Shown here: one piece after another, positions 2,871 through 62,552 of the stretch
How the letters are laid out: the number at the start of each line of letters is the position of its first letter
How positions within the stretch are numbered: the first letter of the stretch is position 1
The notes under the pieces: generated by a model
Databases searched by the model: none
Told to the model about the DNA's origin: nothing
The model's input: only the letters and a program-made list of their open reading frames with translations
DNA from: Halogeometricum sp. S3BR5-2
GTDB lineage: Archaea; Halobacteriota; Halobacteria; Halobacteriales; Haloferacaceae
Direction of reading: 5' to 3'
DNA length: 64,000 nucleotides
Assembly: GCF_031624635.1 (NCBI RefSeq)
Contig: NZ_JAMQOQ010000004.1
Location: 1-64,000 of the forward strand
Program-made: the position numbers and the translations under genes

Positions 2871-3251
2871 ACGTCTCCTCGTACCACCCCGGAGGACTAA
2901 CCCATTTCCCCCTCTCACCAACGCTCTATCCGTCGGTATCCCGTCACTCCCCGGAGATTGCCATAGCGAGTTCGGAATCAGTAATACACACTCACCTCTT
3001 CCTCGAATTGGCAGAAATGCAGAGCCGTACGCGCAAGTAAGTCCAATTACCACCCATATCGGCATATATGCTCCCTATCTAATTCTTTATTCGGAGCATA
3101 TAGAAACATAACTCGCATTCTGGGCAGATATTTGGAGAACAGAACGAGTGCGAGAGACGCGTCGGCCGGGGGTCGTGATTTCCACGGTCGAGCCGTTCCG
3201 ATGGTATTAGCAATAGTTATTTATGAGAGATTGGCTATCCGTCTAGTCAGG
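2871..3251. promoter_or_regulatory. Divergent intergenic region between PAC2 and trmB-like gene
   Basis: 381 bp with no gene, more AT-rich than its surroundings. It must hold the promoters of both flanking genes. It contains a perfect 10-bp palindrome GCATATATGC (3062-3071) and a long inverted repeat described in the next entry. I see nothing else. Confidence 0.5.
3065..3102. promoter_or_regulatory. Perfect 10-bp inverted repeat, candidate operator
   Basis: TATATGCTCC at 3065-3074 and its exact reverse complement GGAGCATATA at 3093-3102, separated by 18 AT-rich bases. The arms are about 150-190 bp before the TrmB start and about 195-230 bp before the PAC2 start. The arms do not resemble the TrmB motif described in Halobacterium (TACT-N7/8-GAGTA), so the binding protein is unknown. 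Inference only; a hairpin in a transcript is the alternative. Confidence 0.4.
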
Positions 3252-4316
3252 ATGGACGAAGAACTCAGAGACAAGATACGGCAGTTCGGTCTGACGGAGA
3301 AGGAGACGGACACCTATCTCACCATCCTGCAGAACGGTCCGGCGACGGTTACGGAAATTGCCAAAGCGGCGGAGATATCCAAGCGACACGTCTACACCGT
3401 CGCGAGGAAGCTCGAAGAACGTCACCTCGTCATCGTCAACGACTACTTCACACCGACGACTATCGAGGCAGCGCCACCGGAGGAGGTGTACGAGCAACTC
3501 AAAGAGCAGGCGAGCGATATGTACCGCATTCTCGAGACGAAGTACCACGGCAGTAACCAGCTGGACGATATCAAGGTGCTGAAGTCCCGTTCGACGGTCA
3601 TCAACAGGCTCGAAGAGATGATACACGCCTCCGAGGATCAGTTGGCGCTCTCGCTGCCCGCCGTGGTCATTCCGACGCTTCAGGACGCCCTCCGCGACGC
3701 CGTCGCGCGCGACGTGCTCGTTTTGCTGTTGGTCTTCGAGGACCGAACGGAAGTCGGGACGGACCCACTCGCCGGCGTTTCGCTGGACGGACTGGCCACG
3801 CTGGTCAGGTACCGCGACTCGAATCAGCCCGTAATGTTGGCGGCGGACTCGAAATCGGCGTTCGTCTCCTCCCGCGGCGTCATCACTCGACCGAACAGTC
3901 CGGTGAAAGCGATTTCGATAGAGCAACCGTACATGGAGACGGTCGTGTTCACGTCGCTCATGAACTCGCTGTGGGTGAACTCCGACGAGGTGAGCGTCAC
4001 TCCGCCCAACGAACTCCCGCACACGTATCGGAACTTACGGAGGGCGGCTATCGACGCGACCATCTACGGAGAGCGGGGCGCTGTGATAACCGCCGAAATC
4101 GAGGCGAGAGCCTGCGACCACCCCGACTCAGTCGTCAATCTCGTCGGCGAGGTCGAAGGGGTAAAACAGCGACTCATCAGTCCGACCACCGACCCCCGTC
4201 CCAGACAGTGCTGCATCTGCCTCCGAACCGAAGAGGGGACGGTTACCGTCGGCAATCACGACGCGTTCTTCGAGGACTACCGCGCCTACAAGACGACGCT
4301 CAGGTTTCCCGAGTGA
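3252..4316 (+). CDS. TrmB family sugar-responsive transcriptional regulator
   Basis: A 354-residue TrmB-type regulator: an N-terminal winged helix (about residues 8-75, including LTEKETDTYLTILQNGPATV and a recognition helix near SKRHVYTVARKLE), a short coiled coil (about 75-105), and a C-terminal sugar-binding domain. TrmB proteins sense sugars and control sugar ABC transporters and central carbon genes. It lies tail-to-tail with the ABC transporter operon (4389-8896), a common position for its own regulator. The open frame extends upstream to 3132, but the ATG at 3252 begins the conserved MDEELRDKIRQFGLTEKE sequence. The sugar ligand cannot be read from the sequence. Confidence 0.87.
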   Translation: MDEELRDKIRQFGLTEKETDTYLTILQNGPATVTEIAKAAEISKRHVYTVARKLEERHLVIVNDYFTPTTIEAAPPEEVYEQLKEQASDMYRILETKYHGSNQLDDIKVLKSRSTVINRLEEMIHASEDQLALSLPAVVIPTLQDALRDAVARDVLVLLLVFEDRTEVGTDPLAGVSLDGLATLVRYRDSNQPVMLAADSKSAFVSSRGVITRPNSPVKAISIEQPYMETVVFTSLMNSLWVNSDEVSVTPPNELPHTYRNLRRAAIDATIYGERGAVITAEIEARACDHPDSVVNLVGEVEGVKQRLISPTTDPRPRQCCICLRTEEGTVTVGNHDAFFEDYRAYKTTLRFPE

Positions 4317-4388
4317 GGCGCTCCGCACCTCCGTCGCCACTGTCCGCCTGCGGGCGATAATTCGGCCCCCGACCGGAGACCGGTTCTC

Positions 4389-5525
4389 TCACGCGTTCGA
4401 GACGGCAGGCGGCGTCGTATCGTCCGGTTCCTCTCTGTTGACGATGGCGTCGCCGGTCTGCCCGTCGAACAGATGAATGCGATTCTCGGGGAGTTCCAGA
4501 CGGATCGTACTCCCCTCGTCAACGTGGACGTCGCCCTCCGTCTCGACGTCCGTCTCGACGCCGCCGAGGTCGACGACGATGTGGTTCACGTCTCCCTGCG
4601 GTTGGACCACCTGGACCGTCCCGGTGACAGAGTGGGATGTTTCGGTCTCCGCGAAGGAGATGTCCTCCGGTCGGATTCCGAGGACGACGTCGTCGCATTC
4701 GGAGACGAGGCGCGCGTGCTCTGTAGAGAGCGGGTAGTCGAATGCGCGGGACGCGAGCACGCTCTCGTCGCGGGTGGTCTCGAAGAAGTTCATCGAGGGT
4801 TCGCCGATGAACCCCGCGACGAACTGATTGTTGGGCTTGTGGTAGCACTCCAGTGGCGTCCCGAGTTGCTGGAGTTCCCCGCCGTTGAGGATGGCGATGC
4901 GGTCGCCCATCGTCATCGCCTCCGTCTGGTCGTGCGTCACGTAGACCGACGTGACGTTGAGGCGGCGTTGGATCTGGAGAATCTCCGTCCGCATCTTGGT
5001 CCGGAGCTTCGCGTCGAGGTTCGAGAGCGGTTCGTCGAGGAGGAACACCTCGGGTTCCCGAACGATCGCTCGACCGAGCGCCACGCGTTGCTGTTGGCCG
5101 CCGGAGAGTTCTTTCGGCTTGTCCTCCAGCAGGTCCGTGATTCCCATCGTCTCCGCGACGGACTCGACGCGGTCGCGTATCTCCTCTTTCGAGAGGTGCG
5201 TCGACATCCGAAGGCCGAACGACATGTTCTCCCGGGCGGTCATGTGGGGGTAGAGCGCGTAGCTCTGAAACACCATGGCGATGTCGCGTTCCTCGGGTGA
5301 CTGGTCGTTGACGACCTCGCCGTCGATACGAATCTCCCCGTCCGTGACCGTCTCCAACCCGGCGATACACTGGAGCGTCGTCGACTTCCCGCACCCCGAC
5401 GGACCGACGAGAACGAGAAACTCCCCCTCGGCGAGTTCGAGAGATAGGTCGTCGACCGCCACGATTTGATTCTCGCCCACGGCGCCGTATACCTTGGTCA
5501 GGTGGTCCAACACTAAGTGTGACAT
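4389..5525 (-). CDS. Sugar ABC transporter ATP-binding protein (MalK/UgpC/ThuK type)
   Basis: A 378-residue cytosolic ATPase that powers the adjacent permeases. Walker A GPSGCGKST at residues 41-49, Q-loop near 87, signature LSGGQ at 140-144, Walker B FLLDEP at 161-166, and H-loop in VTHDQTEA. A C-terminal TOBE/OB domain (about 235-378) identifies the CUT1 sugar and glycerol-phosphate subfamily. It is the last gene of the transporter set, 109 bp behind the second permease, and the gap contains a TATA-like CATTTAATG about 27-35 bp before the ATG, so it may also have its own promoter. The gene set and order match thuK of rhizobial trehalose operons. Confidence 0.93.
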   Translation of the reverse strand: MSHLVLDHLTKVYGAVGENQIVAVDDLSLELAEGEFLVLVGPSGCGKSTTLQCIAGLETVTDGEIRIDGEVVNDQSPEERDIAMVFQSYALYPHMTARENMSFGLRMSTHLSKEEIRDRVESVAETMGITDLLEDKPKELSGGQQQRVALGRAIVREPEVFLLDEPLSNLDAKLRTKMRTEILQIQRRLNVTSVYVTHDQTEAMTMGDRIAILNGGELQQLGTPLECYHKPNNQFVAGFIGEPSMNFFETTRDESVLASRAFDYPLSTEHARLVSECDDVVLGIRPEDISFAETETSHSVTGTVQVVQPQGDVNHIVVDLGGVETDVETEGDVHVDEGSTIRLELPENRIHLFDGQTGDAIVNREEPDDTTPPAVSNA

Positions 5526-5634
5526 CGGATTGCCGATAGACGACCTACTACATTAAATGTGAGGGTAACACATACCACGCGGCGTCCGGCGGAGCGGGTC
5601 TTCTCCGGGCAAGAAGAGAGAACGCGGGGTGTCG

Positions 5635-6498
5635 CTACCCCTTGACTGCCCCGTCCGTGAGACCGCTGACGAAGTAGCGCTGTAACGCGAGGAACATCAC
5701 GAGCAGCGGAATCATCGCGATGACGCTCGCCGCGGCTATCGCGCGGTAGTCGGTCGAGTACTGTCCCTGGAACGAGTAGACGCCCATCGCGATGGTGAAC
5801 AGCTTCGAATCGTTGAGGACGGTGAACGCCATCACGAACTCCGCCCACGAGAAGACGAAGTTGAAGATGCTTACGACCGCTATCCCGGGCATCACCGACG
5901 GGAGGAGCACGTGCCAGAGCGTCTGGAGACGATTGCAGCCGTCGATTCGCGCGGCTTTGTCGAGGTCCTCCGGTATCGTATCGAAGTAGCTCTTCAGAAG
6001 CCAGACGGAGAACGGCACCTGCAGCCCGATGTATAGCGCGATGAGGCCGATGTGGGTGTTCAGGAGACCGAACTGCGCCATCATGTTGTACAGCGGGATG
6101 ACGATGACGACCGGAGAGATCATCTGGAACAGCAGTATCGCCAGCAGGACGGCCCGCTTCCCTTTGAACCGGAACCGCGAGAAGGCGTACGCGGCCGGCG
6201 TGACGAGAAAGAGGATGCCCGCGACTTCGAGCAGCGCTATCTTCAGCGAGTTCCACACCCACCGGAGGATGTCGCTGTTCTCCAGAACGTTTCGGTACAC
6301 CTCGAAGGTGAACTCACTCGGGATGACTCTGAGCGGAACCGAGATGACTTCCTGTCGGGGCCGGACGCTCATCGAAATCGCCCAGAGGACGGGGAAGATG
6401 AAGAACGCCAGTCCCAGCAGGTAGACGGCGTACGTCGCGGCCGTGTAGCGGTCGAAGTCTTCGAACCGGGAGCGGCCGGACCGCGATTGGGTCGCCAT
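5635..6498 (-). CDS. Sugar ABC transporter permease (MalG/ThuG type)
   Basis: A 287-residue membrane protein of the MalG family, one half of the translocation pore. About six hydrophobic segments are visible, starting with TYAVYLLGLAFFIFPVLWAI. The binding-protein-dependent transport signature, with the EAA loop that docks the ATPase, is at about residues 183-205 (IPEDLDKAARIDGCNRLQTL). It starts one base after the stop of the first permease, so the two are probably translated together. Confidence 0.92.
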   Translation of the reverse strand: MATQSRSGRSRFEDFDRYTAATYAVYLLGLAFFIFPVLWAISMSVRPRQEVISVPLRVIPSEFTFEVYRNVLENSDILRWVWNSLKIALLEVAGILFLVTPAAYAFSRFRFKGKRAVLLAILLFQMISPVVIVIPLYNMMAQFGLLNTHIGLIALYIGLQVPFSVWLLKSYFDTIPEDLDKAARIDGCNRLQTLWHVLLPSVMPGIAVVSIFNFVFSWAEFVMAFTVLNDSKLFTIAMGVYSFQGQYSTDYRAIAAASVIAMIPLLVMFLALQRYFVSGLTDGAVKG

Positions 6499-6499
6499 C

Positions 6500-7459
6500 T
6501 CAGATCCCCTCCTCTTCGATGAGGAACCGCATGTAGACGAACGTCATCACGACGTTGACCAGCAGCATCAACACCGCGATGGCCGCCGCCTCTCCGAGGT
6601 TGAACGACTGGAAACCTTTGAAGTACATGAACAGCGCGAGCACCTGCGTCGCCCTCCCGGGGCCGCCCCCGGTGAGGCTGATGATCATATCGAAGGTGTT
6701 GAGCGTGTAGATGGTTATCAGGACGAGATTGATGAACACCACCGGCTTTATCTGCGGAATCGTCACGTGGCGGAACCGCTGTATCGCCGAGGCGCCGTCT
6801 ATCTTCGCGGCGGCGTACAGTTGCTGCGGGACCTGCTGTAACCCTGCGTACAGCATGATCATCGAGAACGCCGTCCCCCGCCACGTGTTGGCGGTAATGA
6901 CCGAGAGGAGCGCCATCTGCGGGTCGGACAGCCACGCGACCACGTCGAACCCGAGTTGCGTCAGGAAGAAGTTCAACACGCCGTACGGCGCCTCGATCAT
7001 CATCAGTTGCCAGATGATTCCGATGACGATGCCCGGGATGACCCAAGCCGAGAGAACGGCGATGCGCGTCGACACGCTCCCGCGGATGTGCTTTTTGACG
7101 CCGTAGTCGATGGCCATCGCCAGTATCAATCCGAGCACTATCTGTCCGATGACGCTGATGGCGACGAATATCAGCGTCACGCGGGCCATCGTCCAGAATC
7201 CCGGAGCGGACAGCACGTCGAGATACTGCTCGATACCCACGTACGAGTAGCTGTCCGAGAGGAGACTCATATCGGTGAAACTCATCCGAACGACTTCGAC
7301 CAGCGGGTAGAGGCGGAACGCGAGGAGTACCGCTATTGCCGGGAACACCCACGGTATCGGGTTCTCCTGGAGCCACACGAACCGTCCGAGCGCTGATCTG
7401 AGGCGCTCCGTTCCGGTGACAGAGGGGTCTTTCGTTCCGGTGTCTGTTTCCGTACTCAT
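6500..7459 (-). CDS. Sugar ABC transporter permease (MalF/UgpA/ThuF type)
   Basis: A 319-residue membrane protein of the MalF/UgpA family with about six transmembrane helices after a hydrophilic N-terminus of some 30 residues. The EAA loop is visible as VPQQLYAAAKIDGASAIQRF, which docks the ATP-binding subunit. It begins 6 bp after the substrate-binding protein gene and is followed directly by the second permease. Together these four genes make one importer. Confidence 0.92.
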   Translation of the reverse strand: MSTETDTGTKDPSVTGTERLRSALGRFVWLQENPIPWVFPAIAVLLAFRLYPLVEVVRMSFTDMSLLSDSYSYVGIEQYLDVLSAPGFWTMARVTLIFVAISVIGQIVLGLILAMAIDYGVKKHIRGSVSTRIAVLSAWVIPGIVIGIIWQLMMIEAPYGVLNFFLTQLGFDVVAWLSDPQMALLSVITANTWRGTAFSMIMLYAGLQQVPQQLYAAAKIDGASAIQRFRHVTIPQIKPVVFINLVLITIYTLNTFDMIISLTGGGPGRATQVLALFMYFKGFQSFNLGEAAAIAVLMLLVNVVMTFVYMRFLIEEEGI

Positions 7460-7465
7460 GCGGTG

Positions 7466-8896
7466 TTACCCGTCGTACTCGCTGTTGACGTTGTTGATCA
7501 TGTTGCGGACGGCGGTCTCGGGATCGGACTGTCCAGTGATGACCTCCCCGGCGGCTATCTGCCACTCGCTGGAGACGGTCGTGTATATCGGATAGCCCGG
7601 ACGCGCTCGACCGTTCTCGAGGAGCTTCGAGTACACCTGGAAGTACTCGTCCTCCGAGAAGAACTCGTTCTCCTCGAAGACGGACTGTCGCGTCGGGAGG
7701 AACCCGCCCTCGCGGCACCGCTGAGCCATGTTCCCCGAATCGGTGAACAGGCTGTAGAGGTCGACGGCGACCTTTCGCTGCTCTTCGTCGTCCGTGAAGA
7801 CGCCCTTCGTCCAACCGCCGACGCCCGTCGCGGCGATGTCCGCGTTCTTCTGCGGAATCGGCGCGACCTTCCAGTTCGACCAGACGTCCTCGTCGACCAT
7901 CGACTTCATGGTGCTTATCTGCCAGTTCCCGCCGAGGAACATCGCCGTCTGGTCGTTGAGCGCGGCCTCGCGGAGTTGAGCGTAGTCGTTGATGTTCGCC
8001 ACGCGCTGCGGCGTGATGCCGGAGTCGATAGTCCGTTTGAACCACTTCATCACCTCGACGAGCGCACTCCTGTTTTCGCTCTCGTCCAACACGGGCGCTC
8101 CCTGGTCGTCGATGAGCGTGCCGCCGAGCGCCCAGAAGTGGGCGAGGTTGTCGAACGTCGTCGCCTCCCACCGGCCGCCGTTGTACATGTAACCGTTCAT
8201 GTTCTCGCCGTCGGCGATGGCGCTCCCCACGTCGACGAGTTCGTCCCACGTCTCGGGCGGGTTCCCCTCGTTGTACTCGTCGAGGAGGTCCTTTCGGTAG
8301 TAGAGCGCCCGACAGTCGGTGTTCTGCCATACCGCGCGCCAACTACCCTCGTTCTTCGCGACGTTCTCGACGAACGGGTACCAGTCGTCATACTCCTGCA
8401 TAGCCTCGTCCACCGAGGCCAGGTCGCCGTAGAACTGCGGCACCCAGAACGAGTCGACTTCCGACATCGGCGGCGCGTTGTTGCTCGCGTTCGCCTGCAG
8501 CAACTTCGTTTTGAACTGCTCTAAGTTCGTCTGAATCTGGACGTTTATCTTCCAGTCCGGGTGTTCTTCGGCCCACGTCGTGAGCATACCCTCGTGCACC
8601 GACCCGAGGTTCGTGTTCTCTGCCGTGTGGATGAAGTCCTCCTGTGTCCAGTAGTTGACCGTGTTGCTCGCCGAGGAGTAGCCGATGCGCTCCGACCCGA
8701 GCGGTTCGCCAGAAGGACTCCCGCCGCCCCCGCTTTCGGAGCCGTCGCCGGTGCTGCCGCCACCGCCGTTCCCGCTCCCGTCGTTCCCGCCGCTACAACC
8801 GGCGAGTGCGACCGCTCCTCCCAGCCCCATGAGTCCCAGGAGTCGCCGTCTGTTGATACTCTCGGCTGGGTCGCTCTCTTCGTGGTTGCTTGCCAT
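7466..8896 (-). CDS. Sugar ABC transporter substrate-binding lipoprotein (family 1)
   Basis: A 476-residue extracellular binding protein and first gene of the transporter operon. It has a Tat signal (RRR at 16-18, hydrophobic stretch 19-30) and a lipobox LAGC at 31-34, so it is exported folded and anchored by lipid on Cys34. A Ser/Gly-rich linker (about 35-70) is typical of haloarchaeal lipoproteins. The mature part fits the SBP_bac_1 fold (for example MFLGGNWQIST and the late ERFF/ETAVRNMIN region), the family binding oligosaccharides and polyols. The ligand is inferred, not seen. A TATA element lies 24-32 bp upstream of the ATG. Confidence 0.92.
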   Translation of the reverse strand: MASNHEESDPAESINRRRLLGLMGLGGAVALAGCSGGNDGSGNGGGGSTGDGSESGGGGSPSGEPLGSERIGYSSASNTVNYWTQEDFIHTAENTNLGSVHEGMLTTWAEEHPDWKINVQIQTNLEQFKTKLLQANASNNAPPMSEVDSFWVPQFYGDLASVDEAMQEYDDWYPFVENVAKNEGSWRAVWQNTDCRALYYRKDLLDEYNEGNPPETWDELVDVGSAIADGENMNGYMYNGGRWEATTFDNLAHFWALGGTLIDDQGAPVLDESENRSALVEVMKWFKRTIDSGITPQRVANINDYAQLREAALNDQTAMFLGGNWQISTMKSMVDEDVWSNWKVAPIPQKNADIAATGVGGWTKGVFTDDEEQRKVAVDLYSLFTDSGNMAQRCREGGFLPTRQSVFEENEFFSEDEYFQVYSKLLENGRARPGYPIYTTVSSEWQIAAGEVITGQSDPETAVRNMINNVNSEYDG

Positions 8897-8918
8897 ATCA
8901 GAAAAAGTGTGTCATCTA

Positions 8919-8928
8919 TGTATATGTA
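8919..8928 (-). promoter_or_regulatory. TATA element of the sugar ABC transporter operon
   Basis: On the minus strand AGTACATATA lies about 24-32 bases before the ATG at 8896. This spacing fits a leaderless haloarchaeal transcript starting at or near the A of the ATG. The surrounding region (8897-9018) is AT-rich. Confidence 0.5.
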
Positions 8929-9018
8929 CTTTTCTAATTATTACTTACAGATTCTTCGAACCGGCTCGACTCCTACGAGTCCGGGCCTCGAACAGCTAAC
9001 TCGGCCGCCACGACGTGC

Positions 9019-9687
9019 TCAGCGTCCCGCCCACAGCGTCGCGTTTTCGAGGACGCGGCGAATCGAGGGGTGGTGGTAGATTCGGAACGTTTCGTGGCCG
9101 GGACGGAGGTAGACGCCGCGTCCATCGCCGAACGTGAACGTCACGCACGACCGGAACTCCCCGCCCTTCGGGAAGGTGCTACGGAGGACCACGTCGTCCG
9201 GTTCCGGAACGTCGAACGGTTCGCCGAACATCTCCGTGTTGGGGAGCGCGAACGATTCGACCCCTCGGGCGATGGGATGGTCCGGCGCCTCGACGGTCAG
9301 AACCTCGGCCTCGCCGGGGTCCTCCCAGCGCACGTCGCCGAGGTCGCCGGACCCGCCGATGAGTCGTTTGAACGGCCGGGCGTAGTGAGCCGAATGGAGC
9401 GATATGAACCCGACGCCGTCGGTTCGCACCGCCGAGACGACCCGATCGACCGTCTCGTCCGTCACGTCGTCGTGGCGCCTGTGTCCCCACCAGAGCAACA
9501 CGTCCGCCCATTCCAGTGCGTCGTCGTCGAGGCCCTGTTGATCCGCCTCGATGGACGTCGCCCGGGCGGCGACGCGACTGGACTCGTTGAGGTGTTCTGC
9601 GACCGTCGCCGCGATGCCGTTGGGGTACACGTCCTCGGGTTCCGTCGCCTCCGTCCAGACGAGCGCGTGGATAGGTTCTCGAACCAT
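9019..9687 (-). CDS. thuA: ThuA-like trehalose/disaccharide utilisation protein
   Basis: A 222-residue ThuA family protein with a class I glutamine-amidotransferase-like fold. Family features: the start REPIHALVWTE, the WADVLLWWGHRRHDDV stretch (about 70-85), the GFISLHSAHYARPFKRLIGG block (about 107-127), and HPIARGVESF with EMFGEPF further on. In rhizobia ThuA acts with the dehydrogenase ThuB on trehalose and related disaccharides by way of 3-keto derivatives. It follows the binding protein gene by 122 bp reading the same way, and a Gfo/Idh/MocA dehydrogenase diverges from it. The ATG at 9685-9687 is preferred to the upstream start at 9723 because family similarity begins there. Confidence 0.85.
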   Translation of the reverse strand: MVREPIHALVWTEATEPEDVYPNGIAATVAEHLNESSRVAARATSIEADQQGLDDDALEWADVLLWWGHRRHDDVTDETVDRVVSAVRTDGVGFISLHSAHYARPFKRLIGGSGDLGDVRWEDPGEAEVLTVEAPDHPIARGVESFALPNTEMFGEPFDVPEPDDVVLRSTFPKGGEFRSCVTFTFGDGRGVYLRPGHETFRIYHHPSIRRVLENATLWAGR

Positions 9688-9825
9688 CACCTTCGAGAAT
9701 TCGCCCGGTTGTAATAAACTCACGCCCCGATCGGAACCGCTATCTGGAGAATTATACTATATCGCTACATTCATCAATAGCCAATACACCGAAATTTTAT
9801 GATATATGAGCGGGAGAAGCAGTCG

Positions 9826-10827
9826 ATGTCAGAACCGACGAAGATAGGCCTAACAGGAGCGGGTGGTCTCGGGATGCACCTGTCGCGGGGTTTCGAAGAT
9901 ACCGAAGACGCGGTCGTCCACGCGGTCGCCGACGTCAGCGACGAGAGCCGGAACCGAGCGGGAGAGAGGCTCGATATCCCCGAAGACCGGCGGTACAGCG
10001 ACCACATCGAGATGCTCGACGATGCCGAACTCGACGGTGTCGTCGTTGCGACACCCCACACGTTCCACTACGAACAAACGCTCGCCGCCTTGGAGCGAGA
10101 GATCGATACGCTCTGTGAGAAACCGATGACGACCGACTTGGCCGACGCCGAAGACCTGGTCCGCCGGGCCGAAGACAGTAGCGCCACGCTGATGATCGGA
10201 TACCAGCGCCACCTCGACTCGGCGTTCCTAACGGCGAAGGAAGCGCTCGCCGAGGAAGTGGGCGAACCGACGTTCATCACCGCCGAGGTCACGCAGAACT
10301 GGATCGCCACCCAACGTGGGACGTGGCGGACGAACCCGGACCTCTCGGGCGGCGGCCAACTCTACGACACCGGCAGCCACCTACTCGACGTCGTCCTCTG
10401 GACGACGGGACTCACGCCCGTCGCCGTGGACGCGCAGATGCTGTTCGACGACGACGAGGACCGCGTCGACGTGCAGGCCGCTCTCACCGTGACGTTCGAG
10501 AACGGCGCCGTCGCCTCCGTCGCCGTCTCCGGAGACACACCCACGGTGCGCGAACATCTCCACGTGTGGGGGGACAACGGCGGCTTCTTCGTCGAGGGCG
10601 AGGACTGGGACCCCCGGAAGATACGCTTCATCGCCCCCGACGGGGGCGAGCGACAACCGAGACTCGACCGCTGGGGGTCGAAGAACAAGGCGCAGGCGTT
10701 CGTCGACGTGATTCGGGACGGCGCCGAACCGCCGGCGACGCCGCGCGATGCGCTGAAGGTTACCGCAGTCACCGAAGCCGCGTACGAGTCCGCTCGGACG
10801 GGAAAGAGAGTCGATATCGACCTCTGA
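9826..10827 (+). CDS. Gfo/Idh/MocA family oxidoreductase (ThuB-like)
   Basis: A 333-residue NAD(P)-dependent sugar dehydrogenase. N-terminal Rossmann motif GAGGLG at 11-16, the family EKP motif at 98-100 with its catalytic Lys, and the active-site block GGGQLYDTGSHLLD at about 175-188 holding the conserved Asp and His. ThuB, the trehalose 3-dehydrogenase of rhizobia, belongs to this family, and divergence from thuA suggests this role; the family alone does not settle the substrate. The ATG at 9826 is preferred to the start at 9799 because the Rossmann strand begins just after it. It shares a 138-bp AT-rich promoter region with thuA. Confidence 0.85.
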   Translation: MSEPTKIGLTGAGGLGMHLSRGFEDTEDAVVHAVADVSDESRNRAGERLDIPEDRRYSDHIEMLDDAELDGVVVATPHTFHYEQTLAALEREIDTLCEKPMTTDLADAEDLVRRAEDSSATLMIGYQRHLDSAFLTAKEALAEEVGEPTFITAEVTQNWIATQRGTWRTNPDLSGGGQLYDTGSHLLDVVLWTTGLTPVAVDAQMLFDDDEDRVDVQAALTVTFENGAVASVAVSGDTPTVREHLHVWGDNGGFFVEGEDWDPRKIRFIAPDGGERQPRLDRWGSKNKAQAFVDVIRDGAEPPATPRDALKVTAVTEAAYESARTGKRVDIDL

Positions 10828-11759
10828 GAGAACGCACAGCGCGTTCCCGATGCCGGCCGGCGACCGAGAGATGAAGTCCGACAGGGTGAACGTCGGCGAG
10901 CAGTCGCGCTCGGTTTCGGGGTCGAGGCGATGGTGTGAAACCGCAGTTCGAACTCTCGACGACGCGGTGTCTGCCGTACGTCGAGCTGGCGTTGTTTGAG
11001 CGGATTGACCGCGTGTGGTCGTTCCTTATCCAGCGATATGGCCGCGGAGAACGCACTCTCGCGGCGTCTTGGACGTTCAACCGTCGGCGCGACGACGAGT
11101 GAAGTTAGAGTTCATTATAATAATTGTTCACGGCGTATGCTCGGAGCGGCTGTCGGGGCTGACACGGCGATTGCCGGCTTCTCCCGCCAGTTGAGGCAAT
11201 ATTTGCGGACATTCGAGAGAACAGACGCCGCACCGAGATATTGAGTGTCGGGAGCCGAAAATTGCCTTTTGTGCAGTACCTCGGTGTCTGTCGGAGGAAA
11301 ATCCGGTACAGTATCCTCTACAGAGACGTTCGTACAGAAATGTACGAAGCCACACTTCAGAGCGACTCTGCAACCGTGCTCGCCGTCGAACGTGTTTGGC
11401 ACCGAATGACTATCCGACGACGATAAGCGATTCACCTCGTAGACGCGCCCCCCATTACACTATTAGTATCGTAATCTATGAGACTCTCGGCCGGAACTGG
11501 AGGACACGGACGTGCGATTAGATACAGGCTCTTTTGGGGAATATAGTTCCACAAATACGCTTTCATACCTACACGAACTGCATCTACGGCGATATTTGGG
11601 TAGATGGAGCTGTATTGCAGGGTCCGAAAGCACGGCGGAGACGGACGAATCGGATGTTCGAGGAATCGATACGACGCGATTCGGGGCATCTGAGGTTGCG
11701 GTCCGCTCCCGAACGGTGTGAAATACGTGTTCACCGAAAAGACGGCGACTGCGGGCCGA
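10828..11759. other. 932-bp region without a supported gene
   Basis: Several short open frames exist on both strands (for example 10996-11244 plus and 11115-11435 minus, about 106 residues), but none shows a recognisable domain, a good start context or haloarchaeal acidic composition. Base composition is lower in GC than the neighbours, which would fit a decayed element or insertion. No terminal inverted repeats or transposase motifs were recognised. Confidence 0.5.
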
Positions 11760-13076
11760 TCAGATCTGTGGTCCGAGATACCCCCACGCGAGGAGGCGGT
11801 CACCGTCGCCGTCTATCCACCGTTCGCCGATGTCGTCGCGGTAGTAGACGTTCGGGATGACGATGTCGTCGATGCGATCGTACGCCTGCTCGCGCGCCTT
11901 CTGCATCGTTTCGCCCTTCCCGGTCACGACGAGGGGCATGCCGCTCTCGCCGGCGACGCGCCACTGCCCGTCGACCTGCTTCGCGTCCTCGAGGTGGATA
12001 CCCGCTCGGCTCTCCGTCTCGAACACGACGGCGGCGTTCCGGGAGTTCTCGTCGTACGTCTTCTCGTCGGTGAAGGGGAACGGCGGGAGGACGATTCGGA
12101 CGCCGATTTGGTAGCCCCGGTGGACCTCCAACTCGGGGCTGTTTCCGTGCGCGAGGTCGTAGAAGAACTGGCCGGTCGACGACTCGAAGGACTCCTCTTG
12201 GAGCGCGATGGTCGGGTAGCCGAACCGGGGGGTGAACTCCAGCGGGTAGATGCCTCGGTCGTTGACGATGCAGTTGATGTCGATGCTGCCGACGTAGCCC
12301 TCGTCGGCGAGCCATCCTTCGAGTTTACCGAGCGTTTCCTCGAACAGGCGGTTCCGCCCGGCCCAGAACATCGAGGTGCCCATCTCGCCCGTCGACGGGC
12401 CGATGTTCCCGGGGAACAGCCGCTTGTGCTCGAAGTTGAAGTTCACGCGGTCGACGAACCGCTCCCCGTCGAAGAACCCGCAGACGGCGACTTCCACTCC
12501 CTCGACCTTCCGCTGGAGCTGAAACCCCGTCATGCGGTGTCCCCACGCCTTCTCGTAGGCTTCGAGCACGTCGACCACGTCGCTGCCGTCGTCCTCGCTG
12601 CCGACGTACAACAGTCGCTTCACGTTCTGGACTTCGCCCAAGGGTTTGATGACGTAGGGCGCGCGGTGGTCCCGGACGTACGCTATCGCCTCGTCGAAGT
12701 CGTGGAAGACGCGGTGTTCGACGGTGTCGACGCCGTGCGCTTCGAGCACGTCCATCGCGTACCCTCGGTCCCCCTCTAGTCGGTCCGTGTTCGGCGTGCC
12801 GCCGACGACGGCCTTCCCCTTCTCGCGGAGTTCGGCCGCGAGTTTTCCCGTCCCGACGTCCGACCCGACCCAGATGTCGTCGAAGACGACGACGTCGGCC
12901 CACTCGACCTCGGCGCGCCAGTCGTCCGTCTTGGGGACGAAGCCGTCGCCTATCTCCCGGTCGCGTTCGGCCTCGATGTAGTACTTCACGTCGTGGCCCT
13001 CGCGGTGAACCTGCCAGGCGAGGTCGGTTATCAGCGCGGCGTCCGCGGAGACGAAGAGGAATCGCTTGCCGTCCAT
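11760..13076 (-). CDS. ATP-grasp protein related to phosphoribosylamine-glycine ligase
   Basis: A 438-residue protein of the ATP-grasp superfamily resembling PurD (GARS). It has an N-terminal Rossmann-like part (MDGKRFLFVSADAALITDLAW), an ATP-grasp core with APYVIKPLGEVQNVKRLLYVG (about 150-170), an acidic metal-binding region DRVNFNFEHKRLFPGNIGPSTGEMGT, and SIDINCIVNDRGIYPLEFTPRFGYPT, where PurD has its Glu/Asn metal ligands. The Gly-rich start typical of true PurD is missing, and no other purine gene is nearby, so a different amine-acid ligation is possible. The ATG at 13074-13076 starts the conserved region although the frame is open to 13337. Confidence 0.75.
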   Translation of the reverse strand: MDGKRFLFVSADAALITDLAWQVHREGHDVKYYIEAERDREIGDGFVPKTDDWRAEVEWADVVVFDDIWVGSDVGTGKLAAELREKGKAVVGGTPNTDRLEGDRGYAMDVLEAHGVDTVEHRVFHDFDEAIAYVRDHRAPYVIKPLGEVQNVKRLLYVGSEDDGSDVVDVLEAYEKAWGHRMTGFQLQRKVEGVEVAVCGFFDGERFVDRVNFNFEHKRLFPGNIGPSTGEMGTSMFWAGRNRLFEETLGKLEGWLADEGYVGSIDINCIVNDRGIYPLEFTPRFGYPTIALQEESFESSTGQFFYDLAHGNSPELEVHRGYQIGVRIVLPPFPFTDEKTYDENSRNAAVVFETESRAGIHLEDAKQVDGQWRVAGESGMPLVVTGKGETMQKAREQAYDRIDDIVIPNVYYRDDIGERWIDGDGDRLLAWGYLGPQI

Positions 13077-18298: not shown

Positions 18299-19510
18299 AT
18301 GACACGTTCGATTCCGGCCCGGTCGCCCGAGTGGCTTCGGCGCGACGCCGTCGGCGCGCTCCGATTCCATCGAGAGCGGTCGATGGACTCGCACTTCGGC
18401 GGCTACGTCGCGCAGGTGAGCGACCGCGACGGCGCCATCTACGACTCGCGCACGAAGCATCTCGTCCCGACCGCCAGATTCGTCTTCGCGTTCAGCGTCG
18501 GGAAACTGCTCGACGGGCCGGTGTGGTGCGAACCGGCGGCCGAGCACGGTCTCTCGTACCTCCGAAACGTCGCCTACGACGAGGAGCGCGGCGGCTACGG
18601 GTGGCTGTTCGCGGGCCGCGAGACGACGGACGACACGCGGGCGACGTACGGGCACGCCTTCGTCCTCCTCGCGTACGCCGCCGCGACGCGCGCCGGCATC
18701 GGCGACGTCGAGGGCCGTATCGGCGAGACGTACGACATCCTCGACGAGCAGTTCTGGGAGGACGACCCCGGCGCTTTCGCCAGCAACCGGGACGGAGACT
18801 GGGACCCCGCCGAACCGGGGTACCGGGGGCAGAACGCCAACATGCACGCGACGGAGGCGCTGCTCGCCGCCTACGAGGCGACCGGCGAGGAGCGCTACCT
18901 GTCGCGGGCGGCCGACGTGGCGGCGACGATAGCGCGCGACAAACCCGACGAGGCCGACGGACTCCTCTGCGAGCACTTCACCGCCGACTGGGAGATAGAC
19001 TGGGAGTACAACCGCGAGAAGAAGGCGGACCTGTTCCGCCCGTGGGGCTACCAACCGGGCCACATGCTGGAGTGGGCGAAACTGCTCGTCCGCCTCGACG
19101 CCCACCGCGACGAGGAGTGGTACCTCGACCGCGCGGAGCGGTTCTTCGACGCCTCCGTGACCGACGGCTGGGACGACGAGCGCGGGGGGTTCTACTACAC
19201 CGTCGACCGCGACGGGTCGCCCATCGTCGAGGCGAAGTACACGTGGGCGCTCGAAGAGGGCCTCGGCGCCGCGGCCCGCCTCGCCGACGCGACGGGCGAG
19301 GAACGCTACTGGGACTGGTACGACCGAATCGCGACGTACCTCCACGAGTACGCGACGAACCGCTCGCTCGGCATCCGCTACGAACGGCTCACGCCGGACG
19401 GCGACGTCCACCCGAGCATCGACGAGACGCCGAAGGTCAAGAGCGGCTACCACCACGTCAACGCCTGCTACGAGGTGCTGGAGTCGATGGGTGCAGTGGA
19501 AGAGTCGTAG
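18299..19510 (+). CDS. AGE family sugar epimerase/isomerase
   Basis: A 403-residue (alpha/alpha)6-barrel enzyme of the N-acylglucosamine 2-epimerase superfamily, which also contains mannose, cellobiose and sulfoquinovose isomerases. Conserved positions: R60 in HLVPTARFVF, YGHAF with H119, GQNANMHATEALLA with H183, PGHMLEWAKLL with H255 and E259, and KSGYHHVNACYEVLESM with H385/H386 in the place of the second catalytic His. Cytosolic. Followed by a TIM-barrel isomerase and a Gfo/Idh/MocA dehydrogenase in the same direction, so it likely serves a sugar-interconversion pathway. The exact sugar is not determined. Confidence 0.85.
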   Translation: MTRSIPARSPEWLRRDAVGALRFHRERSMDSHFGGYVAQVSDRDGAIYDSRTKHLVPTARFVFAFSVGKLLDGPVWCEPAAEHGLSYLRNVAYDEERGGYGWLFAGRETTDDTRATYGHAFVLLAYAAATRAGIGDVEGRIGETYDILDEQFWEDDPGAFASNRDGDWDPAEPGYRGQNANMHATEALLAAYEATGEERYLSRAADVAATIARDKPDEADGLLCEHFTADWEIDWEYNREKKADLFRPWGYQPGHMLEWAKLLVRLDAHRDEEWYLDRAERFFDASVTDGWDDERGGFYYTVDRDGSPIVEAKYTWALEEGLGAAARLADATGEERYWDWYDRIATYLHEYATNRSLGIRYERLTPDGDVHPSIDETPKVKSGYHHVNACYEVLESMGAVEES

Positions 19511-19612
19511 TCCCCATCGTGCTCCGGCGGTCCGTCACCATCGTTCGACGGAGAAGGGGCAACCCTTGGTCGTTCACGGGCACTTATGCGGGAGAGGGGA
19601 GAACCCCGCGCT

Positions 19613-20347
19613 ATGACATCCATCGGATTTCAACTGTACAGCCTCCACGCGGTCGAAGACGACCTGCCGGCTGTCATCGAACGCGTCGGCGAGACCGAGT
19701 TCGAGGGCGTCGAACTCGCCGGTCTGGGCGACGCCGACCCCGACGCGGTGGGCGAGGCGTTGGCGTCGGCCGACCTCGAACTCGCCGCGGCGCACGTCGG
19801 CCTCGAGACGTTGGAGGAGAGCCTCGAGGAGACGGCGGAGACCTACCGCGAACTCGGCTGCGAGGACGTCGTCGTCCCGTGGTTAGAGCCCGATGAGTTC
19901 GAGTCCGTCGAGTCGGTGGAGGCGGCGGCCGAGCGTCTGAACGCCGTCGCCGCCGACCTCGCGGCGCACGACCTCTCCCTGCACTACCACAACCACGACC
20001 AGGAGTTCGTCGAACTCGACGGCGAACCCGCGCTGTCGTACCTCCTCGAAGCGACGGACGACGACGTGGGACTCGAACTGGACCTCGGGTGGGCCGGCGC
20101 CGCCGGCTACGACCCCCTCGCGTACCTCGACGACCACGCCGAGCGAGTGCGTCTCGTCCACCTGAAGGACTACGACGGCGACGCGGGCGAGGCGGCCGTC
20201 GTCGGCGAGGGCGATTTAGACATCGAGGCCGCCGTCGACAGCGTCCGGGACCACGGGTTCGACTGGCTCGTCTACGAGGCCGAAGAGGGTCCGGACACCT
20301 ACGACACCCTGACGCACGCCGACGACGTCGTCCGGACGTACTGGTAA
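19613..20347 (+). CDS. Sugar phosphate isomerase/epimerase (xylose isomerase-like TIM barrel)
   Basis: A 244-residue AP_endonuc_2/IolE-like TIM barrel. Metal-binding and active-site segments are visible: FEGVELAGLG (strand 2), LSLHYHNHDQEF with its His pair, VGLELDLGWAGAAGYDP, and RLVHLKDYDGD, ending in WLVYEAEEG with the last Glu. These enzymes isomerise keto sugars, or in 3-keto-glycoside pathways split keto intermediates. The ATG at 19613 gives the conserved first strand TSIGFQLYSLH. It sits 102 bp after the AGE gene and 100 bp before a Gfo/Idh/MocA gene, all in one direction. Confidence 0.85.
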   Translation: MTSIGFQLYSLHAVEDDLPAVIERVGETEFEGVELAGLGDADPDAVGEALASADLELAAAHVGLETLEESLEETAETYRELGCEDVVVPWLEPDEFESVESVEAAAERLNAVAADLAAHDLSLHYHNHDQEFVELDGEPALSYLLEATDDDVGLELDLGWAGAAGYDPLAYLDDHAERVRLVHLKDYDGDAGEAAVVGEGDLDIEAAVDSVRDHGFDWLVYEAEEGPDTYDTLTHADDVVRTYW

Positions 20348-20447
20348 CTGTATCGGACGCACTGCGCGCGTCCGAGACACGGGCTCGTCGGGCCCGGTCG
20401 AAGGCGAAACCCCTATGTCGGTCGTTCACCCACAGCGTAGTAGATAG

Positions 20448-21545
20448 ATGAGCAGTTACACTGTCGCGGTCATCGGCACCGGTCCGGATCCGAGCAACCC
20501 AACGGTACAGGGGTTCGCCATGGGCTATCGACACACGGAGGCGTACGCCACCGACGACCGGTTCGAGTTGGTCGGCGCAGCCGACATCGTCGAGGAGAAC
20601 GGGCAGGCGTTCGGAAACCACTTCGACCTCGACGAGGAGAGCGTCTACGTCGACTACGAGGAGATGCTCGCGGACCTCGAACCCGACGTAGTGAGCGTCT
20701 GCGTCCCGCCCGCTATTCACCGGCCCGTGGTCGTCACGTGCGCCCAGAGCGGCGTCGTGGAAGCGATTCACTGCGAGAAGCCGATGGCCGACACGTGGGA
20801 GGAGGCCCGGACGATGGTGCAGGAGTGCTGGCGACGCGACGTGCAGTTGACGTTCAACCGCCAGCGTCGCTTCGGCAGACCGTTCACCGAGGCCAAGCGG
20901 CTCATCGAGGAGGGGGAAATCGGGTCGCTCGAACGGATAGAGATCGGATGGGGGGACTTCTACGACACCGGCGCGCACTCCGTCGACCTCGCCTGCATGT
21001 TCAACGACGAGCACACGGCCGACTGGGTCCTCGCGGGCCTCGACTACCGCGAGGAGGACGTTCGGTTCGGCTCCCACCAGGAGAACCAGATGTGGGCGCA
21101 GTGGCGCTACGAGAACGGCGTCTACGGCGTCGCCTCGACGGGGCCGGGGACGGACTTCGTCGGGGCGGCGTTCCTCCTCCGAGGGAGCGAGGGGACGGTC
21201 CGCATCGACGTCGAGGACGGACCGATGCTCGAACTGGAACGCGACGGCGAGCGGACGGCGATAGACGTCGGCTCCGAGACGCTCCACCACAGCGGGCACG
21301 AGGAGGGTCGGTTCGGCTCGCAGTTCCACGACCGCGCGGTCGCGGAAGTCGCCGACGCCCTCGACGAGGGGCGTGAGCCGACCCTGAGCGGCAGACGCGG
21401 ACTCAACACGACCGAGATTCTGTTCGCCGGCTACGAGTCCGTCCGCACCCGCGGCCGCGTCGACCTCCCCCTCGACCTGGACGACAATCCGCTGGAAGCG
21501 CTCGTCGAGTCGGGCGAACTGACCCCCCGAACCCCCGACGAGTAG
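20448..21545 (+). CDS. Gfo/Idh/MocA family oxidoreductase
   Basis: A 365-residue NAD(P)-dependent dehydrogenase. The nucleotide-binding loop GTGPDPSNPTVQGFAMG (10-26) is longer than the usual GxGxxG turn, a variant known in some subfamilies. EKP is at 110-112 and the active-site block YDTGAHSVDLACMF at about 172-185. It probably oxidises a sugar or polyol in the same pathway as the two genes before it. The spacing of about 100 bp before each gene suggests separate promoters or one long transcript. Confidence 0.85.
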   Translation: MSSYTVAVIGTGPDPSNPTVQGFAMGYRHTEAYATDDRFELVGAADIVEENGQAFGNHFDLDEESVYVDYEEMLADLEPDVVSVCVPPAIHRPVVVTCAQSGVVEAIHCEKPMADTWEEARTMVQECWRRDVQLTFNRQRRFGRPFTEAKRLIEEGEIGSLERIEIGWGDFYDTGAHSVDLACMFNDEHTADWVLAGLDYREEDVRFGSHQENQMWAQWRYENGVYGVASTGPGTDFVGAAFLLRGSEGTVRIDVEDGPMLELERDGERTAIDVGSETLHHSGHEEGRFGSQFHDRAVAEVADALDEGREPTLSGRRGLNTTEILFAGYESVRTRGRVDLPLDLDDNPLEALVESGELTPRTPDE

Positions 21546-60795: not shown

Positions 60796-61584
60796 TCACG
60801 GGACGAAGTCGAGCACGCGCTCGACCGTCGCCGCGGCGTCGGTCGACGGCGAGTACTCGAGGCCGACGTAGCCGTCGTAGCCGGCGTCATCCAGCGCCTC
60901 GAAGATTCGCGCGTAGTTGAGTTCGCCCGTTCCGGGTTCGCGTCGTCCCGGCACGTCGGCGACGTGGACGTACCCGACGAACTCGACGTGTTCGGTCAGG
61001 TTCTGGATGACGTTGCCTTCGGTTATCTGCTGGTGGTAGACGTCGAAGAGGACTGAAACTGCGGAGCTGTCCACCGCGTCGACGATTTCGTACGCCTCGT
61101 AGGAGGAGTCGAGATAGTACCCGGGGTGGTCGACCGGATTGTTGAGCGGTTCGACGACGAGGTCGATACCCGCCGCCTCCGCGGCGGGCGCGGCGTCCCG
61201 GAGGGCGTTGACGACGGCGCGGTGTTCGGCGCCCGGCGGCAGGTCGTCCCGCTCGGGGCCGACCGTGACCACCAAGGCGTCGACGCCGACCGCCTCGCCC
61301 AGTTCGACCGAGCGTTCGAGGTCCGAGACCCCCTCCTCGTGCAGCGAGGGGTCCGTGAGGCCGGGTCCCTCCCCCTGCGTGTTGGCCGCGACGCCGACGC
61401 ACGTCGACGCCGACACGGAGACGCCGTGTTCGTCGCAGCGGTCGCGGAGGGTTTCGGCGTCGACGTCCTCGATACCCCAGAACTCGACCGCTTCGAGTCC
61501 GAGGTCGGCGACTTCCGCGACGGCGTCCACCGGGTCGTCGACTCCGAACACCATGTTGGCGTTCGCGCTGACGGTGAAGCTCAT
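60796..61584 (-). CDS. Hydroxypyruvate isomerase-like TIM barrel protein
   Basis: A 262-residue AP_endonuc_2 TIM barrel close to Hyi: the segment VLFDVYHQQITEGN, the HVADVPGRREPGTGELNY motif, EPLNNPVDHPGYYL and the final GYVGLEYSPSTDA are almost diagnostic. Hyi interconverts hydroxypyruvate and tartronate semialdehyde; related proteins act on keto sugars. It overlaps by four bases the preceding Gfo/Idh/MocA gene (61581-62552), so the two are made together and probably act in sequence: oxidation, then isomerisation. Confidence 0.87.
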   Translation of the reverse strand: MSFTVSANANMVFGVDDPVDAVAEVADLGLEAVEFWGIEDVDAETLRDRCDEHGVSVSASTCVGVAANTQGEGPGLTDPSLHEEGVSDLERSVELGEAVGVDALVVTVGPERDDLPPGAEHRAVVNALRDAAPAAEAAGIDLVVEPLNNPVDHPGYYLDSSYEAYEIVDAVDSSAVSVLFDVYHQQITEGNVIQNLTEHVEFVGYVHVADVPGRREPGTGELNYARIFEALDDAGYDGYVGLEYSPSTDAAATVERVLDFVP

Positions 61585-62552
61585 TCGGCCACCCGCTGTG
61601 ATTCGCCCGTCTCCAGGGCGCGCTCGACCGCGAGGGTCGTCTCGAACGTCTTCCGCGCGTCCTCGTACGGCGACCGCAGGAGCGACTCGTCCCGCGTCTC
61701 GACCGCCTCGACGAACGCCCGCATCTCGGTGTCGTACGGGTCGCCGTCGCCCTCGAAGGCTACCTCCTCGCCGTCGACGGTGCCGACGAGGGTGTCGGCG
61801 CCGATGTCGAGTTCGAGCGAGAAGCCCTCGCCGGTCAGACTGATCCCGTGGGAGAACCGCGCGGAGGTGGACGTGGCCGAGACGTGGCTGATCGCGCCCG
61901 TCTCGTGTCGCATCGACGCCGAGGTGGAGTCCTCGAAGTCGAGTTCCTCGTCGTGCACTTCCTCGCCGCCGACGGCCGACACGGACTCGACGTCGCCGGC
62001 GAAGTACCGGACCGCGTCGTAGGTGTGTGTCGCCTGCTCGACGACCTGCCCGCCCGAGAGGTCCTTCTTCCGCCACCAGTGGTCCGCATCGCCCGGGATG
62101 CCGCACCACCAGTGCCCGTCAACGAGCGCGACGGTTCGCTCGCCGACGAGTTCCGTCGCGCGCTGAACCAAGTCGACGTATCGGACCATGTGACCGACCT
62201 GCGCGAGGCGGTCGGACTCGGCGACGGCCGCGGCGTTCTCGCGGACGGTCTCGCTGTCCAGCGCGAGCGGTTTCTCGACGAACAGGTCGGCTCCGTGCTC
62301 GACCGCGAGCCGCTCTTGATCCTCGTGTGCGAACGGGGGAATCCCGACGACGACGGCGTCGAAGTCCGCTTCCGCGTACATCTCGCGGTGGTCGGTGAAC
62401 GCCGCCGCGCCGTGCGTCTCCGCGGCGGCCGTCGCCCGTTCGTCGTCGATGTCGCAGACCGCGACGACGTCGGCCCGCTCGTTCGATTCGAGGTTGTCGA
62501 GGTGGACGGACGCGATACCACCCGCACCGATAAACGCCAGTTGAACGGTCAT
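61581..62552 (-). CDS. Gfo/Idh/MocA family oxidoreductase
   Basis: A 323-residue NAD(P)-dependent dehydrogenase: Rossmann GAGGIA at 9-14, EKP at 93-95, and the active-site block GGQVVEQATHTYDAVRYF at about 175-192, where the family often has GG-x-D-x-G-x-H; here the Asp and Gly are replaced (EQATHTYD), as in some sugar-acid subfamilies. It is coupled by four-base overlap to the Hyi-like isomerase. Substrate unknown; myo-inositol, galactose or sugar acids are common in this family. Confidence 0.87.
   Translation of the reverse strand: MTVQLAFIGAGGIASVHLDNLESNERADVVAVCDIDDERATAAAETHGAAAFTDHREMYAEADFDAVVVGIPPFAHEDQERLAVEHGADLFVEKPLALDSETVRENAAAVAESDRLAQVGHMVRYVDLVQRATELVGERTVALVDGHWWCGIPGDADHWWRKKDLSGGQVVEQATHTYDAVRYFAGDVESVSAVGGEEVHDEELDFEDSTSASMRHETGAISHVSATSTSARFSHGISLTGEGFSLELDIGADTLVGTVDGEEVAFEGDGDPYDTEMRAFVEAVETRDESLLRSPYEDARKTFETTLAVERALETGESQRVAE

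Follow-up and report, generated by a model that had tools for sequence, protein, structure and literature searches.

Gene content and insertion site

The window analysed here is a stretch of 64,000 nucleotides from contig NZ_JAMQOQ010000004.1 of the haloarchaeon Halogeometricum sp. S3BR5-2, and the subject is a cluster of putative sugar uptake and oxidation genes at positions 3252–10827. A profile search of the window proteins placed seven genes in this range, all intact and above Pfam cut-offs: a TrmB-family regulator, a CUT1 importer composed of a sugar-binding lipoprotein (sugar-binding protein, SBP), two permeases and an ATPase, a ThuA-domain protein and a Gfo/Idh/MocA dehydrogenase, referred to below as Gfo (Table 1). 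An earlier note on the same DNA had listed these parts, and its inventory holds. The genes on the minus strand run in the order A-E-F-G-K, and the Gfo gene is divergent from the ThuA gene across about 111 bp. The same note placed the cluster under a TrmB regulator; the adjacency was confirmed, whereas the operon architecture was not, since the TrmB gene is convergent on the importer operon, entering from its far (ATPase) end, and is divergent in the orthologous operons described below. No inverted repeat was seen in the ThuA/Gfo intergenic region, and the TACT-N-AGTA motif of the Halobacterium-type TrmB is absent at the cluster, its two matches in the window being located at 28 and 59 kb.

The biological unit exceeds the seven-gene range. 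In two genomes of the same genus, G039 and G041, the PAC2 and ATP-grasp genes that flank the cluster are adjacent and the site is empty; the alignment with these genomes ends at window position ~2870 (visible similarity extends to ~2899) and restarts at 11770, with only ~50–60 bp between the two aligned blocks. The resulting insertion of ~8.9 kb has a G+C content of 60.8%, compared with 67–68% in the flanks. Neither the binding protein (at E ≤ 1e-60) nor the ThuA protein (at subfamily-level identity) was found in any of the four same-genus genomes, as would be expected, on this sequence comparison, of an island acquired recently by lateral transfer. No tRNA gene was detected in the window, no Rfam match within its first 24 kb, and no direct or inverted repeats of at least 8 bp at the island ends. 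The right end of the island was also inspected for a decayed Gfo of the second class described below (class B), TIM barrel or TrmB, and no convincing match was obtained downstream of the Gfo gene. The flanking ATP-grasp gene has a counterpart (79% identical) ~5.4 kb from the importer operon of genome G329 (L115:1393–2751), which belongs to another family; an integration hot spot or joint transfer is possible.

Table 1. Features of the island in the window
Feature	Position	Strand	Basis and remarks
Island inserted between the PAC2 and ATP-grasp genes	~2900–11769		alignment to same-genus genomes G039 and G041
TrmB-family regulator	3252–4316	+	PF11495 (139.6 bits), PF01978; non-orthologous to TrmB of the conserved operon
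CUT1 ATPase, MalK/UgpC type	4389–5525	-	PF00005, OB_MalK, TOBE_2; NF008653 442 bits (cut-off 432)
CUT1 permease, MalG-like	5635–6498	-	PF00528
CUT1 permease, MalF-like	6500–7459	-	PF00528
Sugar-binding lipoprotein of importer (SBP)	7466–8896	-	PF13416/PF01547
Short-ThuA protein	9019–9687	-	PF06283 (95 bits); ATG at 9687, longest open reading frame from GTG at 9723
ThuA/Gfo divergent intergenic region, putative promoters	9688–9798		AT-rich, 111 bp
Gfo/Idh/MocA dehydrogenase, haloarchaeal class A	9799–10827	+	PF01408/PF22725/PF02894; alternative ATG at 9826
Island right end, non-coding	10828–11769		

Orthologues of the importer in a conserved haloarchaeal operon

Orthologous importers were identified at 10 loci in nine other haloarchaeal genomes (Haladaptatus-like, four loci; Saliphagus; G008; G009, two loci; G329; G395), the identities to the window proteins being 48–61% for the SBP, 62–69% for the MalG-like permease, 63–75% for the MalF-like permease and 58–64% for the ATPase. 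All 10 loci combine the SBP-F-G-K genes with a Gfo gene of class B, which follows the ATPase gene in every case except Saliphagus, where it stands after the gene for the MalG-like permease. The coupling of uptake to oxidation suggested earlier is supported, because a Gfo gene is present at every locus with an orthologous importer, and the gene neighbourhoods show importer and dehydrogenase to have been inherited together. A TrmB gene is adjacent at nine of the 10 loci (L113 is without one); these regulators are 40–92% identical among themselves and are divergent at the promoter end of the operon. No earlier report of this operon was found in the literature search.

The window cluster departs from the orthologous loci in carrying a class A Gfo (36–41% identical to the class B enzymes), an added ThuA gene and a convergent, unrelated TrmB, which is 23–28% identical to the regulators of the operon. 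Among the 10 loci, a ThuA of the type found in the window adjoins the cluster in Saliphagus only. In G329, a gene for a PF01261 TIM-barrel protein overlaps the stop codon of the Gfo gene, and in Haladaptatus genes of GH2 and GH76-like proteins adjoin the operon. The nearest solved relatives of the binding protein are MalE3 and TMBP-type (maltose/trehalose-like) sugar-binding proteins, which fits the predicted carbohydrate uptake without singling out one sugar. A structure model of the binding protein, built from a two-sequence alignment, was discarded owing to its predicted local distance difference test score (pLDDT) of 31.6.

The dehydrogenase lies outside the ThuB clade

In a maximum-likelihood tree of 64 rows, the window Gfo groups with a protein of genome G022 (63–64% identity) inside a haloarchaeal class A of 40 rows (support 100/99), which is the sister of class B (95/92 for both classes together). 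Both Sinorhizobium ThuBs fall outside these two classes, together with paralogs from the same genome to which they are unrelated (94/87). Long branches in the outer part of the tree leave the position of ThuB itself unsure; its exclusion from classes A and B is unaffected. Membership of the dehydrogenase in the ThuB clade, by which the earlier note would have recognised a rhizobial-type system, was thus not observed: the enzyme is 25.8% identical to S. meliloti ThuB and lies in a separate, strongly supported clade. The outcome named there as refuting the proposal, clustering with inositol or other polyol enzymes, was not seen either.

The EKP and DTGSH catalytic-type motifs, as expected of a functional dehydrogenase, are kept. 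By both sequence and fold, the closest solved enzyme is the aldose-aldose oxidoreductase 5a02; a fold search with a model of the window Gfo (pLDDT 77) returned the whole Gfo/Idh/MocA superfamily at similar scores and gave no substrate signal.

A short ThuA subfamily linked to Gfo genes

A ThuA query was matched in 104 of 170 genomes of the family, mostly at 42–50% identity. As judged from the tree and the alignment, the window ThuA groups with six other haloarchaeal proteins (from Saliphagus, Halovivax, G082 and G022, and two from Halomontanus), and a branch with support 95/100 sets this group apart from canonical ThuA, which takes in the rhizobial ThuA, the Geobacillus protein 1T0B and the ThuA of most haloarchaeal genomes searched. 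The short ThuA proteins, which this analysis separates from canonical ThuA, are missing ~8 residues near the N-terminus and carry an SGDLG insertion, while the motifs WWGH, LHSxH, E(M/Y)xxE and RPGHE are kept. They are rare, being present above the subfamily-level threshold in three of 391 genomes of the class.

Each of the seven short-ThuA loci examined has a class A or class B Gfo gene within ~8 kb. Since the chance expectation for such a linkage was estimated at ~1% per locus (three class A/B genes in a genome of 4.66 Mb), it is not accidental. The same genome also encodes a canonical ThuA at C1:306 kb (L024:8986–9765), with no importer or Gfo cluster in the surrounding 19 kb. Canonical ThuA, which goes by the name 'trehalose utilisation', is widespread in haloarchaea; this copy has no Gfo or sugar importer gene nearby.

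Substrate clues from neighbouring genes

Several polysaccharide-degradation genes, as named by their families, lie close to genes for a short ThuA or a class A Gfo: a rhamnogalacturonan-lyase-like gene (RGL11) with sulfatase and arabinofuranosidase genes in G022, genes of GH4, GH2, GH3 and ketohexokinase in G082, GH172 in Halomontanus and GH3 in Halovivax. Because of these neighbours, breakdown products of complex polysaccharides are favoured as the substrate over trehalose, to which the gene contexts do not point; trehalose is unsupported. The polysaccharide-degradation clusters of soil and sediment haloarchaea listed in an earlier survey likewise include a "trehalose utilization protein" (PMC3102087). 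Two of the short-ThuA loci additionally contain genes of a class II aldolase and a four-carbon acid sugar kinase.

Comparison with known systems and alternative explanations

The thuEFGKAB locus on pSymB of S. meliloti (L021 3087–9384) likewise encodes a CUT1 importer, a ThuA-domain protein and a Gfo/Idh/MocA dehydrogenase together, and the binding-protein relatives of the window importer include trehalose/maltose-binding proteins. The identities to the rhizobial proteins are 42% for ThuA, 46% for ThuK, 29–32% for the permeases, 24% for ThuE and 26% for ThuB. The rhizobial genes are co-directional in the order E-F-G-K-A-B, whereas in the window ThuA is encoded upstream of the SBP and Gfo is divergent; the regulator is of the TrmB family instead of a bacterial one, the rhizobial ThuA is of the canonical subfamily and the window ThuA of the short one, and the Gfo clades differ as well. 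The description of the cluster as thuEFGKAB-like therefore stands with regard to the functional parts and falls with regard to membership, and on the sequence evidence the label is an analogy of parts. That the cluster is a true equivalent, in which trehalose or related disaccharides are taken up and assimilated via 3-keto derivatives, is quite unlikely, the more so as the genome has no match to a hydrolase of such derivatives (see below).

Two alternatives start from the dehydrogenase itself. It could be an inositol-type enzyme of a cyclitol or polyol system with an importer for inositol, a polyol or glycosides of these, as its best curated model is the myo-inositol 2-dehydrogenase IolG (TIGR04380, 121.7 bits) and the TIM barrel of G329 weakly matches IolE (TIGR04379, 53 bits). 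Both scores are far under the cut-offs (355 and 290), and ThuB itself reaches 120.4 bits on the IolG model, so that the match of the window Gfo is not specific. Moreover, the mannitol/sorbitol (msc) operon of Haloarcula hispanica, which resembles the window cluster as a haloarchaeal CUT1 importer (SBP-F-G-K) genetically coupled to dehydrogenases, has other dehydrogenases and an IclR-type activator, and the accessible portion of its report mentions no ThuA domain (PMC11519228); a cyclitol or polyol system is considered unlikely. It is similarly doubtful that the substrate of the Gfo is a free aldose, converted at C1 to the lactone as by Gfo6, the haloarchaeal xylose dehydrogenase, and by the aldose-aldose oxidoreductase (AAOR) of Caulobacter, with ThuA handling the sugar acid. 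Such a reaction would suit the closest solved structure, a score of 106.3 bits on the Gfo6 model (NF041392), and the aldolase and acid sugar kinase genes at two short-ThuA loci; against this, the fold match to AAOR has ~26% identity, the Gfo6 cut-off of 350 is far from reached, and the window Gfo has a histidine at the position of its DTGSH motif where AAOR reads DIGIY.

A further comparison is offered by the levoglucosan (lgd) cluster of Bacillus smithii, for which a route of oxidation, elimination, hydration and reduction has been proven (PMC7676230). As in the window, an ABC sugar importer lies beside Gfo-type dehydrogenases, and TIM-barrel proteins are encoded as in G329; lgd is without ThuA, whereas the window cluster is without an adjacent TIM barrel, and the window Gfo scores 64 bits on the levoglucosan dehydrogenase model (cut-off 650). 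Scores on BT_2158 (38.5 bits; cut-off 750) and BT_2159 (28 bits; cut-off 650) are lower still.

Proposed function

Import followed by NAD-dependent oxidation of a glycoside is the most likely function of the cluster. Through the CUT1 importer of the island the cell would take up a glycoside or a small oligosaccharide, the cytosolic class A Gfo would then oxidise the sugar ring with NAD, and the short ThuA would act on the oxidised product or help the dehydrogenase. The cluster itself would represent a remodelled form of the conserved operon, in which the class B Gfo was exchanged for a class A Gfo with a short ThuA, and the TrmB for an unrelated one. Taken jointly, this explanation is considered rather probable.

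C3 is the preferred candidate for the position of oxidation, by analogy only; the parallels are thuAB, for which 3-keto derivatives are described (Ampomah 2013, as cited in PMC10433430), B. smithii lgd and the eliminase operon of Agrobacterium (PMC10628242). The 3-keto route of the earlier note may be regarded as plausible. A broader view, that haloarchaea possess an oxidative (3-keto) glycoside module of their own, with two sister Gfo classes and short ThuA (or a TIM barrel in G329) acting after a shared CUT1 importer, evolved apart from rhizobial ThuAB and moving as an island, can be put forward only tentatively.

Several observations weigh against the oxidative explanation. All curated NCBIfam Gfo models score far under cut-off on the window Gfo, none of the island enzymes is characterised to subfamily level, and no established ThuA chemistry was found in the literature search. 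The PF06439 3-keto-disaccharide hydrolase has no match in the genome, which is 99.9% complete, and the TIM barrel of G329 has its closest homologue in this genome on another contig, at only 33% identity. Because PF06439 hydrolases are lacking, cleavage would fall to ThuA or to a TIM-barrel protein encoded elsewhere, for example by the IolE-like gene at 19616–20344. Finally, the gap between the SBP and ThuA genes (8897–9018) is AT-rich and 122 bp long, for which reason importer and ThuA genes may form separate transcripts.

If the oxidative explanation is true, the cluster would exemplify archaeal glycoside catabolism that needs no classical glycosidase in its first step. Even without it, a conserved haloarchaeal importer-dehydrogenase operon has been defined and a clean empty site is available; the island, this operon and the short-ThuA/Gfo module are worth keeping.

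Related loci

A second divergent pair of ThuA (minus strand) and Gfo (plus strand) genes, of other subfamilies, is located at C4:70026–71984 (L022:10026–11984), ~6 kb past the window end. As a possible closer counterpart of thuAB it was rejected, its Gfo being no closer to ThuB and its ThuA yet more divergent. Within the window, a Gfo/Idh/MocA gene at 61581–62552 (minus strand) groups at 100/100 with a Gfo from a Poribacteria contig (L014), where a short-type ThuA is encoded beside it. Outside the island, genes of an AGE-family (mannose-isomerase-like) isomerase, an IolE-like PF01261 TIM barrel and a Gfo/Idh/MocA protein stand in a row at 18299–21545 (plus strand), possibly a second oxidative sugar cluster. 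A recurrent arrangement of a class A Gfo gene with an adjacent gene of ~491–494 codons, a canonical ThuA and TIM-barrel isomerase-like and sulfatase-like genes was observed at L096, L097 and L098 (G008, G009 and G079).

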